Source: Candidatus Zhuqueibacterota bacterium
GTDB lineage: Bacteria; SM23-31
Length of the DNA: 6,123 nucleotides
NCBI GenBank assembly: GCA_022562855.1
Contig: JADFON010000120.1
Location: forward strand, 1 to 6,123
Reading direction: 5' to 3'
The number at the start of each line of letters is the position of its first letter. The first letter of the stretch is position 1. Shown here piece by piece: positions 1 through 4,451 of this stretch. The notes under the pieces are model-generated. The model saw nothing but the letters and a program-made list of their open reading frames with translations, did not search any database and was not told the origin of the DNA. The position numbers were made by a program, and so were the translations under genes.

Positions 1-371
1 CTGTCTGAGGCAACTAACATAGTACCGGGAAACGCATACCCTTCCTCACACATAATCTGGTGACCGATACCCCTTCCGGCAGGATAAAAATCGACGCCCA
101 TTTCGGCGGCAAAGTTTTCAATGTTACGGTATTTTTCAAGATTTTTGTCGGTTTTATCTTGAATATTGTGGTCAAGGGTAAATACCGGCTGCCGCGGATC
201 AGCCATTTTTACCGCGCCCGTCGACCTGAACTTTCCTATCACTGCCCCTGTGTTGTCGTGGGTCATTACATGGGCGGGTCGGATAAAGATGTATTCTTCA
301 CTGTGAACCTCCTGTCCGGGTTCCAGGTCAACGGCATACTTTTGGGCTATTTTTTCTACAAGATTTTGCAT
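1..371 (-). CDS. Aconitase family protein, homoaconitase-like, N-terminal part (runs off left edge)
   Basis: Not in frame with any plus-strand gene: read on the minus strand from the ATG at 371 it gives 123 codons before the window edge. Aconitase-family enzymes are [4Fe-4S] hydro-lyases that isomerise citrate/isocitrate or homologous acids in the cytoplasm. Visible family motifs are [14 protein letters not shown] (31-44), [18 protein letters not shown] (64-81), [13 protein letters not shown] (95-107) and the start of the VASDSH motif (120 onward). The combination of [12 protein letters not shown] with EEGYAFPGT resembles the homoaconitase (Lys4) branch more than classical AcnA or AcnB. The cysteines that bind the cluster would lie beyond the edge. 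The start is supported by homology beginning soon after it, although there is no good ribosome binding site. Placement after citryl-CoA synthetase and lyase genes suggests it acts on citrate/isocitrate, that is, as an aconitase. A true homoaconitase of lysine synthesis or an isopropylmalate isomerase relative cannot be excluded from the fragment. Confidence 0.85.
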
Positions 372-546: not shown

Positions 547-1071
547 CTATTTAAAAATATCAAAGTTTATAAAATCGGCGTGGTGGAGAATCCATGCCTC
601 CGGAGTCCGTATCCCGTGGTCGCCTTCCTTCGAATGAACAGCGATTATATGCATCACTTCATCGGGAATACCTTCATCAAAACACAGTCCGACTCCCGTA
701 AAGGGGTGACGCAGGATTTTTCCCTGCTTACTTTTAACAAAACCGTCGTCTGTCTTCTCGTATTCAAGCATCTTTGCAACATCATGCAAAACGGCTCCCG
801 CAGCCAGAATATTGAGATCGATCTCCTTATCGGGATAAATTTCCTTGATTTTCCGTCCTGCTCCCATTGTTACGCCTATTACGCCCCGCATATGCATAAT
901 AAAATTGACGTCTGTTTTGAAAAATAATGTAAACGGCATATTAAGAAGATCGTCCGGCGTCATTTTTACATAATCAAACGCTTTGATCCACACATTCACA
1001 CATTTTTCCAATAGTTCTTTGTCTTTTATCTCATAGAATTCCGGTATGAGTTCTAATAAACGTTCCCGCAT
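547..1071 (-). CDS. HD-domain protein, predicted metal-dependent phosphohydrolase
   Basis: A complete 174-residue cytoplasmic protein. The HD superfamily uses histidines and aspartates to bind one or two metals and usually hydrolyses phosphate esters or nucleotides. All expected ligands are visible in order: H60 (FIMHMRG), the H96-D97 doublet (AVLHDVAK), H122 (LRHPFTG), H146 (AVHSKEGD) and D166 (LHHADFIN). That is the full H...HD...H...H...D pattern, so the site should be active. There is no signal peptide, membrane segment, GYP motif or partner domain. The start at 1071 is well supported by AAGGA five bases upstream. It begins 68 bases after the lyase stop, in the same direction, and precedes the aconitase gene, so it is probably part of the same operon. 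The substrate is unknown; regulation of a nucleotide signal or clean-up of a damaged metabolite are both possible, and neither can be read from the sequence. Confidence 0.9.
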   Translation of the reverse strand: MRERLLELIPEFYEIKDKELLEKCVNVWIKAFDYVKMTPDDLLNMPFTLFFKTDVNFIMHMRGVIGVTMGAGRKIKEIYPDKEIDLNILAAGAVLHDVAKMLEYEKTDDGFVKSKQGKILRHPFTGVGLCFDEGIPDEVMHIIAVHSKEGDHGIRTPEAWILHHADFINFDIFK

Positions 1072-1139: not shown

Positions 1140-1916
1140 TTAACCGTCAATCTCCCGGTCGTCCGGGCCGTCATATTCCCACGAAAACGGATCGATTCTG
1201 CGCATCGGTTTGTAACGGTTTTTCTCTTCAAATACATGAGCCGCATGACCGGATATCCTGCTCACAATAAAAAACAAATTGCCATATTCGGGTGTAAATC
1301 CGAGGTCGCATAAGACAGCCGCAATCGCACCGTCAACGTTTATGGGCAGACTCTTGTTGATTAATTTCTGAAGTGACTTTTCTATGGACCTTGCAATTTT
1401 GACAAAATCACCGGCAACTTCATATTGTTCTGCAAGATCAAATAATTTAGCAGTTCTCGGATCTTGAGTGTGAATCCGGTGTCCGAATCCAAATACCACT
1501 TCTTTCTTTTCTCTCATTTCTGCAATAACTAATTTCGCGCTATCGTTAATAGAGAGATTTTTTTCACCGCGAAGTTCATCGATAGTGGAAAAAATTCTCA
1601 TAGCCGACTCTATAGCGCCGCCATGATACTTGTTTATCGACAAAATTCCTGCAGCAAGCGCTGCGTTTAGTTCGGAGCCGGTCGAAGCTACCGTAATGGC
1701 TGCCTGCGTGGATGGCGATGTTACTCCATGATCAATCGATGACACTAAAATCGCATCAAGCAGTTTTCCGATATTATCAGACGGCAGATTTCCTTTCAAT
1801 ACAAGATAAATCGATTGGGCAAATGAGATTCTGCCCATCAATTTATCAATGGAATAACCACGAACAGATATTTTGTTCGGTTCGATTTTTGTGATTGCGC
1901 TTTTCCACTTATCCAT
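1140..1916 (-). CDS. ccl: Citryl-CoA lyase (citrate-synthase fold)
   Basis: A 258-residue protein with the citrate synthase catalytic core but far shorter than citrate synthase (about 370-440 residues); this length matches the stand-alone citryl-CoA lyase of the reductive TCA cycle and the C-terminal lyase domain of ATP-citrate lyase. It would split citryl-CoA into acetyl-CoA and oxaloacetate. The catalytic residues can be placed: H98 (KYHGGAIESA, equivalent to pig His274), H146 (FGFGHRIHTQDPR, His320) and D195 (INVDGAIAAVL, Asp375). SIDHG (60-64) and SRISGHAAHVFEE (219-231) add substrate-binding positions. The opening ITKIEPNKISVRGY and the ending KPMRRIDP with EYDGP also look like the lyase family. 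It follows the SucD-like gene by 76 bases and has GAGGT ten bases before its ATG. The reverse, citrate-forming direction, or a related 2-methylcitryl or citramalyl-type substrate, is possible, but the neighbours favour citryl-CoA. Confidence 0.85.
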   Translation of the reverse strand: MDKWKSAITKIEPNKISVRGYSIDKLMGRISFAQSIYLVLKGNLPSDNIGKLLDAILVSSIDHGVTSPSTQAAITVASTGSELNAALAAGILSINKYHGGAIESAMRIFSTIDELRGEKNLSINDSAKLVIAEMREKKEVVFGFGHRIHTQDPRTAKLFDLAEQYEVAGDFVKIARSIEKSLQKLINKSLPINVDGAIAAVLCDLGFTPEYGNLFFIVSRISGHAAHVFEEKNRYKPMRRIDPFSWEYDGPDDREIDG

Positions 1917-1992: not shown

Positions 1993-2892
1993 TTATAATT
2001 TTCCAACAATTTTTCGCGTTGTCTCCCAAAGATCATCGAAAGAATCAACTACTGTAGCTCCAACCTCCCGCAAACGCTTCACTTTGCCTTCATGGCTTCC
2101 CCTGTCGCCCTCGATAATCGCCCCGGCGTGTGAAAAGCGGGTCCCTTTTTTTGCCGCCTTACCCCCGATAAATGAAATCAAGGGTTTTGTAAATTCCCCA
2201 CTTTCGATCAGATCGGCAACCTGTTCCTCCTGGGATGATCCAATTTCACCAAACATTACAACTGCATTCGTGTCGTCATCTTTTTCGAACAGTTTTATCA
2301 CCTCAGGATGCGGCATACCGACAATTGCGTCTCCGCCAACGTGAACAAGAGTAGAAAGCCCCACGCCAACCCTGCTGAGATAATACCCAATCGAAGTAGT
2401 TATTCCCCCGCTTCTCGATGTTACGCCGACATTTCCCTTTTTGAACCAGGTTGACGCGGTCGCCGCTCTTCCGCCGATCATCCCAAGCACGCCGTTTTCT
2501 ACGCTGAGAATTCCAAGAGTATTCGGTCCGATAAATCGTGCACCTGTTATCCTTGAAACCTTTTCGATTTCCAAAACATCATAAATCGGAACCCTGTCCG
2601 GAATTATCACGACAAGCTTTACGCCGGCGTACATTGCTTCAAGAGCCGCGTTTTTAACTAAAGGCGCAGGCACAAAGATCACACTGATATCAATATCGCC
2701 TACTTCCTCTTTAGCTTCTTCTACCGTATTGAAAACCGGAATGTTCTCTACTTTCTCTCCTTTTTTTCCCGGAGTACATCCGGCAATAACATTGGTCCCG
2801 TATTCCACCATCAGGCGGGTCCTGGCTCTGCCCTCCCTGCCGGTTATACCCTGAACGAGAACTCTTTTATTTTTGTCGATTAAAATTGCCAT
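1993..2892 (-). CDS. ccsB: Citryl-CoA synthetase small subunit (succinyl-CoA synthetase alpha-like)
   Basis: A 299-residue protein of ordinary SucD length. The family forms an acid-CoA thioester through a phosphohistidine. The N-terminal CoA-binding Rossmann domain shows QGITGREGRARTRLM (14-28) and AGCTPGKKG (37-45). The central ligase part shows RFIGPNTLGILS (119-130) and VGVTSRSGG (155-163). E216 (MFGEIGSS) and the phosphorylated histidine H255 (FSHAGAII) match E. coli SucD Glu208 and His246. The usual cysteine of GPNCPG, which lies by CoA, is a threonine here (T125). It starts 38 bases after the large-subunit stop and precedes the lyase, so the pair is probably citryl-CoA synthetase. True succinyl-CoA synthetase is the main alternative; sequence alone does not separate them, but linkage to the citryl-CoA lyase argues for citrate. 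The start has no clear Shine-Dalgarno sequence, so translation may be coupled to the gene before. Confidence 0.8.
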   Translation of the reverse strand: MAILIDKNKRVLVQGITGREGRARTRLMVEYGTNVIAGCTPGKKGEKVENIPVFNTVEEAKEEVGDIDISVIFVPAPLVKNAALEAMYAGVKLVVIIPDRVPIYDVLEIEKVSRITGARFIGPNTLGILSVENGVLGMIGGRAATASTWFKKGNVGVTSRSGGITTSIGYYLSRVGVGLSTLVHVGGDAIVGMPHPEVIKLFEKDDDTNAVVMFGEIGSSQEEQVADLIESGEFTKPLISFIGGKAAKKGTRFSHAGAIIEGDRGSHEGKVKRLREVGATVVDSFDDLWETTRKIVGKL

Positions 2893-2930: not shown

Positions 2931-4451
2931 CTATGCAAAATCCTCGACCGGCAGGTCGACATAGCATCCGTTTTCTCCGTGCATTCTACATTCCAGTTCG
3001 CATCCGAGACATTCTGTGCACTTCCCTTTTTTTGCATCAGCTACGCTGACAGCGAGCACCGGCGCCCCGTTTTCGAGCTTTAATATATTGGGTTCGCACG
3101 ATTCGATACAAATCTTTGAGGAGCATTTCATACACAAATCGTATTGAAACTTTACGCTTCCGGTCACGGTCTCAAATTCGTAATCAACTTTTTTTAGACC
3201 GACTTCCGGTTTTTTATTGTCTTTTAAAGGTTTATATTCTTTTAACAATTCGTCCATTCGTTCTGCGCAGTAGTCCGCTGAATCATCCTTGGTATAGCCT
3301 TCAACAGGGGCGGGAACGCCTTTTGTATAATTCTGAAGGATCTCTACTGCTTTTTCCTCCATGTTTCCGCCAAGACGTATAACTGCAGGAATGTTGAGGT
3401 TTTCCTCAAGAAACGCCTTGACAAGCCCTCTCGCAGAATGTATCTGCTCCTGGCTCGCGACTCCCGAACCGGACCCAAAATATCCGTCGATGCCTTTTTG
3501 AGAGAGAATTATTTTCGCAGCGCGATAGACTTTTGACGCCGGCGGATTACCGCTGGTATCGCAGAAATTAGCGAGTTTGTACCCTCTTCTCTGAATAGCA
3601 TCCATTGACATCATCGACCCGCCGCCGCCGGCTCCGTGAAAACCCAGGTATCTTTCGTTTTTTTTGAAATTCTTTTCTAATTGGATAAAATAAAACGTAC
3701 CCCTGTAATCGTCCTTTTCAATCGAGTAGGCAAGTTTGTCAAGAGGTGTCGGAGGAGCGTCGAGTTCACGTGCATAGGTAATCCCAAGATCGGGATGTCT
3801 AAATACAGCGTAGTCATCCACAGTAATTCGACAATCGGCGGCAAAAACTTTGCCTTCTTCTGTAACGGCAATGGGGTTAATCTCTACGGATCTCGCTTCA
3901 TAAGCGAGGGCAACTTTTACAAGATTCACCAGCAATCTGCTAACCTGCAGTAGAATTTTACCTTCAATATCAAATTTGCGCAGAAGGTTTAAGGCTTCAA
4001 AATCTCGAAGACCTGAATTGATGTCAATCGTATATTTAATGATGGATTCGGGATAATCACGGGCGATTTTTTCGATGCCGGAGCCGCCTTTTAAGCTAAA
4101 TAAGAGGACTGGCGCACGTTCAAGGTCGTCGATCGTTATGCTTGCGAACATTTCGTCTTTTATCGAAAGCTTTTCTTCAACCAGCACTTCACCGACCGTA
4201 AAATTTCGAATAGTCTTCCCAAGAATGTTTTTTGCGATTCCGGAAGCTTCTTCGGGATTTTCCGCAAATCCGATTCCTCCGACCGCAGCACGCCCGGTGA
4301 ACCAAGTTTGCGCTTTTATTGCCACTGGTTTATTTATCTCACGGGCGGCATCGGAAGCTTGCTTCGGAGTTTGACAAACCTTTCCGGAAGGGACAGGGAT
4401 ATTTTGTTTCTTCAGCAGTTCTTTACTTTGATATTCAAATAGTCTTGCCAT
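2931..4451 (-). CDS. ccsA: Citryl-CoA synthetase large subunit (SucC-like ATP-grasp) with C-terminal ferredoxin-like cysteine domain
   Basis: A 506-residue protein, against about 390 for SucC. The first ~390 residues align along SucC: LFEYQSKELLKKQNIPVPSGKV (4-25, in part) opens the ATP-grasp fold; EGKILLQ (163-169), VEINPIAVTEEG (189-200) and DCRITVDDYAVFRHPDL (206-222) carry the metal/ATP site; FHGAGGGGSMMSMD (271-284), CDTSGNPPASKVYRAAKIIL (297-316) and PAVIRLGGN (355-363) form the ligase domain that meets the small subunit. A charged linker (about 400-425) is followed by a cysteine-rich end: C440-x2-C443-x4-C448-x3-C452-E-P and C478-x2-C481-x2-C484-x3-C488, plus C496. The second set is a textbook [4Fe-4S] spacing, the first a variant. 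With the small subunit it should activate citrate with ATP and CoA. It leads the operon. The ATG at 4451 fits homology but lacks a Shine-Dalgarno sequence. Succinyl-CoA synthetase is the main alternative substrate assignment. Confidence 0.8.
   Translation of the reverse strand: MARLFEYQSKELLKKQNIPVPSGKVCQTPKQASDAAREINKPVAIKAQTWFTGRAAVGGIGFAENPEEASGIAKNILGKTIRNFTVGEVLVEEKLSIKDEMFASITIDDLERAPVLLFSLKGGSGIEKIARDYPESIIKYTIDINSGLRDFEALNLLRKFDIEGKILLQVSRLLVNLVKVALAYEARSVEINPIAVTEEGKVFAADCRITVDDYAVFRHPDLGITYARELDAPPTPLDKLAYSIEKDDYRGTFYFIQLEKNFKKNERYLGFHGAGGGGSMMSMDAIQRRGYKLANFCDTSGNPPASKVYRAAKIILSQKGIDGYFGSGSGVASQEQIHSARGLVKAFLEENLNIPAVIRLGGNMEEKAVEILQNYTKGVPAPVEGYTKDDSADYCAERMDELLKEYKPLKDNKKPEVGLKKVDYEFETVTGSVKFQYDLCMKCSSKICIESCEPNILKLENGAPVLAVSVADAKKGKCTECLGCELECRMHGENGCYVDLPVEDFA

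Follow-up and report, generated by a model that had tools for sequence, protein, structure and literature searches.

A conserved ferredoxin-like domain fused to a citryl-CoA synthetase large-subunit homolog in uncultured bacteria

The window analysed here (the whole stretch of 6,123 nucleotides) carries a ccsA-like gene in which a complete succinyl-CoA synthetase-like body is followed by a ferredoxin-like domain with eight cysteines. This fusion recurs across several bacterial phyla with its cysteines conserved, its tail is matched by ferredoxin profiles, and its gene stands in an operon with a citryl-CoA lyase gene. The best reading of these observations is that the tailed proteins form a distinct clade of citryl-CoA synthetase equipped with a permanent ferredoxin module. 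Citrate cleavage is one of the steps on which reversal of the TCA cycle for CO2 fixation depends, and the conserved fusion hints that in these uncultured bacteria this step is tied to the redox state of the cell. We speculate, with a probability of roughly one in three, that the fused ferredoxin senses how reduced the cell is and in response activates citryl-CoA synthetase or determines which way it runs.

Gene architecture and the ferredoxin-like domain

The gene reads on the minus strand from an ATG start, with no interruption, as a protein of 506 residues. The features of the gene are as follows.

2931..4451, minus strand: ccsA-like gene, homolog of the citryl-CoA synthetase large subunit with a C-terminal ferredoxin domain (506 aa; family of 26 genomes)
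3867..4442, minus strand: ATP-grasp_2 domain, residues 4-195 (Pfam PF08442, E 2.5e-48)
3252..3770, minus strand: CoA-ligase/citrate-binding-type domain, residues 228-400 (best PDB match 6hxq; Citrate_bind in 15/15 members)
3267..3269, minus strand: Cys395, directly before the linker (invariant in 26/26 homologs)
2943..3176, minus strand: ferredoxin-like domain of 2[4Fe-4S] type, residues 426-503 (Fer4_9, HgcB and OorD profiles; PDB profile matches)
3096..3134, minus strand: first cysteine motif, C440-x2-C443-x4-C448-x3-C452, then E-P (conserved in 25/26)
2988..3020, minus strand: second cysteine motif, C478-x2-C481-x2-C484-x3-C488 (first three in 26/26 homologs, C488 in 25/26)

Succinyl-CoA synthetase beta chains (SucC) of known structure align with residues 3-375, which, together with the ATP-grasp_2 match, places the cysteine region beyond a complete SucC-like body, from which it is separated by a poorly conserved linker. 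The first-pass annotation of this DNA had proposed just such an arrangement, a ferredoxin-type domain joined to the end of a complete CcsA-like subunit. Its position for the domain, 2964-3134, and both of its cysteine motifs agree exactly with the sequence (cysteines 440 to 496 map to window positions 3134 down to 2964), and the fusion itself is upheld by Pfam and NCBIfam profiles, PDB profile matches, the eight cysteines and the operon. The one additional cysteine it counted does exist, at position 496, but it lies outside the conserved pattern, being present in only 3 of the 26 homologs, and as a cluster ligand it is ruled out. Two cysteines of the body, Cys395 and Cys207 (window 3831-3833; adjoining the invariant Asp206 and present in 22/25 homologs), might be regulatory thiols.

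Profile searches point to a ferredoxin. The search against the Pfam 4Fe-4S families that the first-pass annotation had suggested detected Fer4_9 in 14 of 15 family members, with E values down to 8.4e-6; in the window protein itself the match is weak (E 0.0026) and under Pfam's curated cut-off. The NCBIfam model that matches the most tails is HgcB (24 of 25, best E 5.6e-7); OorD matches 19/25 (best 1.8e-5), and DmsB and HydN models match some tails. A profile built from the tails aligns across both motifs with PDB entries 8ys5_D, the ferredoxin subunit of a 2-oxoglutarate oxidoreductase, 1xer, a ferredoxin, and PsaC; a single-sequence search of the PDB with the window tail gave no match. In the first motif the spacing is x4 where a classical 2[4Fe-4S] ferredoxin has x2, and we take the resulting C-x2-C-x4-C-x3-C to be the spacing familiar from subunits of the DmsB/HydN type. 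AlphaFold2 models of the full protein and of the tail, made with only two sequences in the alignment, have a mean pLDDT of 34-35. Judging from the sequence, it is very probable that the tail holds [4Fe-4S] clusters. A ferredoxin fold with two clusters pairs its ligands crosswise, with cysteines 1, 2, 3 and 8 for one cluster and cysteines 4, 5, 6 and 7 for the other.

Conservation of the tail and a natural variant

Members of the family come from 26 genomes, which represent five or more phylum-level groups with non-overlapping genome sets, and the tail is present in every one of them. Cysteines C452, C478, C481 and C484 occur in all 26, and C440, C443, C448 and C488 in 25, so that all eight are kept in 25 of the 26 genomes; the loss of these cysteines among homologs, which the first-pass annotation had named as evidence against a cluster-bearing domain, is confined to a single genome and does not refute its proposal. 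Such retention across at least five phyla puts the tail far beyond chance. Within the window's own family-level group the tail is found in 3/3 genomes, and within a second phylum in 4/4. A sample of 386 diverse genomes yielded 15 tailed members, which score at least 530 bits with the family profile as against at most 270 bits for ordinary SucC in the same sample; a second broad genome sample added no further members. Across 116 genomes, a search with the tail profile at a threshold of E 1e-8 detected the domain neither on its own nor in any other fusion. A scan of genome contigs returned a sole match, bacterium SM23_31, with tail and flanks identical in reading to those of family genome G001, while all matches in a plasmid search lay below 60% identity and, where annotated, were SucC among the matches listed.

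A frameshift or assembly chimera is ruled out as the origin of the fusion, which is common to all 26 genomes. Separately, one member (G378, L070) has an in-frame TAG inside its ccsA frame.

With the cysteines left out, mean identity among homologs is 47% in the tail and 48% in the ATP-grasp domain, compared to 18% in the linker, and for the closely related G520 and G521 dN/dS amounts to about 0.04 in the tail and about 0.03 in the body. The tail is under strong purifying selection and about as conserved as the ATP-grasp domain.

The sole exception to the cysteine pattern, G309 (L069 8369-9931), has lost cysteines 1-3, has number 8 one place later and has kept cysteines 4-7. In the tree it nests inside the eight-cysteine clade, which indicates a secondary loss. 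The loss, although from a single lineage, follows the pattern that the ferredoxin cross-over would predict, unlike that expected of two sequential zinc knuckles. This bears on the possibility that the cysteines bind zinc, or that the domain is a ferredoxin in decay that no longer holds clusters. Cys4 motifs can indeed bind zinc, and the sub-threshold Fer4 match of the window's own tail could be read in the same direction. Against this stand the near-universal retention of the eight cysteines under strong purifying selection and their spacing, which together with the G309 loss fits the cross-over pairing; we regard both versions as very improbable. The zinc option that the first-pass annotation had left open is likewise made less likely, as two sequential Cys4 motifs, by the removal of cysteines 1-3 with 4-7 intact. 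G309 would hold one cluster at most, a state that a redox wire would not easily tolerate, and its existence speaks against an electron wire that strictly needs both clusters. No citryl-CoA lyase gene was found in the 18 kb neighbourhood of ccsA in G309.

Operon, substrate and the possible role of the tail

The ccsA-like gene is the first of an operon in the order ccsA, ccsB, citryl-CoA lyase, HD-domain protein, aconitase, whose further members lie in the window as listed here.

1993..2892, minus strand: ccsB-like gene, SucD-type small subunit with a HAGA phosphohistidine motif (CoA_binding and Ligase_CoA)
1140..1916, minus strand: citryl-CoA lyase gene (NF004869, 266 bits, cut-off 212; NF004866, 263 bits, cut-off 245)
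547..1071, minus strand: gene for an HD-domain protein, between the lyase and aconitase genes (PF01966, E 1.2e-10)
3..371, minus strand: beginning of an aconitase-family gene that runs off the window (PF00330, E 6.9e-15)

Neighbourhoods were surveyed for up to about 9 kb on each side of ccsA where contigs allow. The ccsB gene adjoins ccsA in 24 of the 26 genomes and a citryl-CoA lyase gene is nearby in 21. Other recurring neighbours of ccsA are genes for an HD-domain protein (15 genomes), an aconitase-family protein (13) and a dehydrogenase of the isocitrate/isopropylmalate type (10). All of these counts are lower bounds because several contigs end early. Over the same distances no 2-oxoacid:ferredoxin oxidoreductase or ferredoxin gene recurs, and hence no redox partner is indicated. 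We note that G247 and G112 (L062 and L063), both of one small phylum, have neither a ccsB nor a lyase gene near ccsA, and that in G001 the ccsB gene (L058 9177-10096) is split into two overlapping frames, possibly by an assembly frameshift.

The window protein misses the cut-offs of the SucC models (NF001913, 248.7 bits as against 370; TIGR01016, 238.5 as against 375.55), and its C-terminal ligase domain finds its best match among PDB structures in Hydrogenobacter CcsA (6hxq, E 3.5e-12). This domain carries the CcsA-like motifs IEKDDYRG and GGGGS..ANF.D.SGNPPASK, and in the general form D-D-x-R-G and GGGGS..ANF.D..GNPPA.K these are common to the window protein, 6hxq and a canonical-type CcsA from another genome, G016. 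In the tree the tailed proteins cluster together, separate from SucC and from the one canonical CcsA included, and a tree of the body only agrees; since this canonical CcsA sits on a long branch, its position is unsure. The window protein scores 26.2 with Citrate_bind, just below the Pfam cut-off of 26.8. At the substrate site, the citrate-binding loop of ATP-citrate lyase and CcsA is replaced in the tailed proteins by an invariant SGSGxAxQEQ, where Hydrogenobacter-type CcsA has GGTAxNTR, a loop that is not known to be a requirement for a CcsA. The SGSGxAxQEQ loop, and an operon aconitase that exceeds a homoaconitase cut-off, leave citrate as the likely, not the proven, substrate, and on present sequence evidence we consider that the enzyme probably acts on it.

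Alternatively, the ligase might act on a relative of citrate such as homocitrate, the operon then being a homocitrate or other tricarboxylate module, a possibility that is compatible with any role of the tail. Besides the altered loop, the full-length aconitase relative in G001 (L058 3332-5296) scores 889 bits with the homoaconitase model TIGR00139, whose cut-off is 529.9, and the dehydrogenase neighbouring the operon aconitase has homoisocitrate dehydrogenase models as its closest matches, without reaching their cut-offs. Set against these are a lyase above the cut-offs of two citryl-CoA lyase subfamily models, the citrate-binding domain profile found in all 15 members tested and the CcsA-like motifs of the ligase domain; a substrate other than citrate is accordingly improbable in our view.

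As to the tail, we propose the following scheme. The window gene would encode the large subunit of CcsAB, a two-subunit citryl-CoA synthetase, which with citryl-CoA lyase would interconvert citrate and acetyl-CoA plus oxaloacetate, ATP being spent or gained. A bacterial-type 2[4Fe-4S] ferredoxin domain, permanently fused to this subunit, would bind one cluster through cysteines 1, 2, 3 and 8 and the other through 4, 5, 6 and 7, and the ligase chemistry would remain non-redox and without need of electrons. The ferredoxin module would most likely sense oxygen or how reduced the ferredoxin pool is, or else dock the complex to a ferredoxin-using 2-oxoacid oxidoreductase, and cleavage of citrate would then be restricted to conditions in which reduced ferredoxin is at hand for making use of the acetyl-CoA. 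That the module either responds to oxygen or to ferredoxin-pool redox, or docks a ferredoxin-using enzyme, and is not purely structural, we put slightly short of an even chance, which makes it the likeliest of the readings considered.

The genome from which the window comes offers some context. It holds three alpha genes of the 2-oxoacid:ferredoxin oxidoreductase type and, beside the citryl-CoA lyase operon, a separate citrate (Si)-synthase over cut-off (L114 2089-3201, G000:C146), which together suggest that CcsAB and the lyase are used for cleavage, with ferredoxin-dependent enzymes downstream. One 2-oxoacid oxidoreductase operon of this genome (L111 664-3104, G000:C299) has an alpha gene whose closest match is oxalate oxidoreductase (378 bits, below the cut-off of 500), adjoined by a cysteine-rich subunit that bears a ferredoxin domain.

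One could go further and suppose that the tail is itself an electron carrier, serving a 2-oxoacid:ferredoxin oxidoreductase seated on the CcsAB-lyase assembly, so that acetyl-CoA would be handed over and carboxylated within one complex. The matches of the tails to OorD and to subunits of the OGOR/PorD type, and of the tail profile to 8ys5_D, are what such a carrier would lead one to expect, as are the three alpha genes. None of those oxidoreductase genes was seen in the ccsA operons, however, HgcB and other ferredoxins match the tails as well as or better than OorD does, and G309 lacks the ligands for one of the clusters; we consider an electron-carrying role quite unlikely.

The main rival to a sensing or docking module, and by sequence inseparable from it, is a purely structural role, in which the two [4Fe-4S] clusters would hold the C-terminus in place or build an oligomer, either of CcsA with CcsB or of CcsAB with the lyase in a complex that channels citryl-CoA, with no part in regulation or electron transfer. 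Some non-redox enzymes do have structural Fe-S clusters. The catalysed reaction needs no electrons, G309 does without the ligands of one cluster, the surroundings of ccsA show no conserved redox partner, and the poorly conserved linker sets the tail off from the body as in an add-on module. A structural role would nonetheless leave unexplained why SucC and canonical CcsA manage without the tail, and why the tail looks like OorD and other ferredoxin subunits that transfer electrons, and we rate it as a serious but rather unlikely explanation. If the redox-sensing reading is true, a ferredoxin domain on the citrate-activating subunit would link redox state directly to citrate cleavage, and in several deep-branching phyla, most of them uncultured, a non-redox step of the TCA cycle would be under the direct control of an Fe-S switch.

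Comparison with known systems

In the open full-text literature we found no description of a ferredoxin domain on citryl-CoA or succinyl-CoA synthetase (subscription papers and database annotations lay outside the search). The accessible part of the Nitrospina genome paper describes two low-similarity ATP-citrate-lyase-like genes and in that part mentions no Fe-S domain for them. A survey with Hydrogenobacter references reported the two-step cycle in 10 MAGs (PMC9802188). Since the clade is about 32% identical to the Hydrogenobacter type, it may be overlooked by searches with such references.

Among the enzymes of known structure, the ferredoxin domain is absent from SucC, from Hydrogenobacter CcsA and from the subunits of ATP-citrate lyase, and it is likewise absent from the SucC and canonical CcsA sequences compared, in keeping with the earlier suggestion that ordinary SucC and the Hydrogenobacter enzyme lack such a tail. 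A close characterised relative is Hydrogenobacter thermophilus CcsA (PDB 6hxq), which shares with the window protein the SucC-type fold, a CcsB-type partner subunit and a citryl-CoA lyase partner, but which has 429 residues, no ferredoxin tail and a different loop at the substrate site, and falls in a separate group of the tree. The canonical-type CcsA of G016, 413 residues long and 32% identical to the window protein, also has no tail. SucC has the same two-domain body, over residues 3-375 of the window protein, but at about 385 residues it lacks both the tail and the GNPPA motif.

For the tail itself, OorD/KorD, the ferredoxin subunit of 2-oxoglutarate:acceptor oxidoreductase, has a comparable eight-cysteine ferredoxin domain; it is a free-standing subunit of the oxidoreductase, whereas the window domain is fused to a CoA ligase and differs in its first motif, C-x2-C-x4-C-x3-C. 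HgcB, the mercury-methylation ferredoxin, has in common with most tails a match to its NCBIfam model; it is free-standing, has the corrinoid protein HgcA as its partner and has no link to citrate metabolism. A parallel in design is ABCE1/Rli1, in which, as in the window protein, a ferredoxin-like two-cluster domain is fused to an enzyme with non-redox chemistry, although ABCE1/Rli1 is an ABC ATPase of ribosome recycling with its domain at the N-terminus and an unrelated body.
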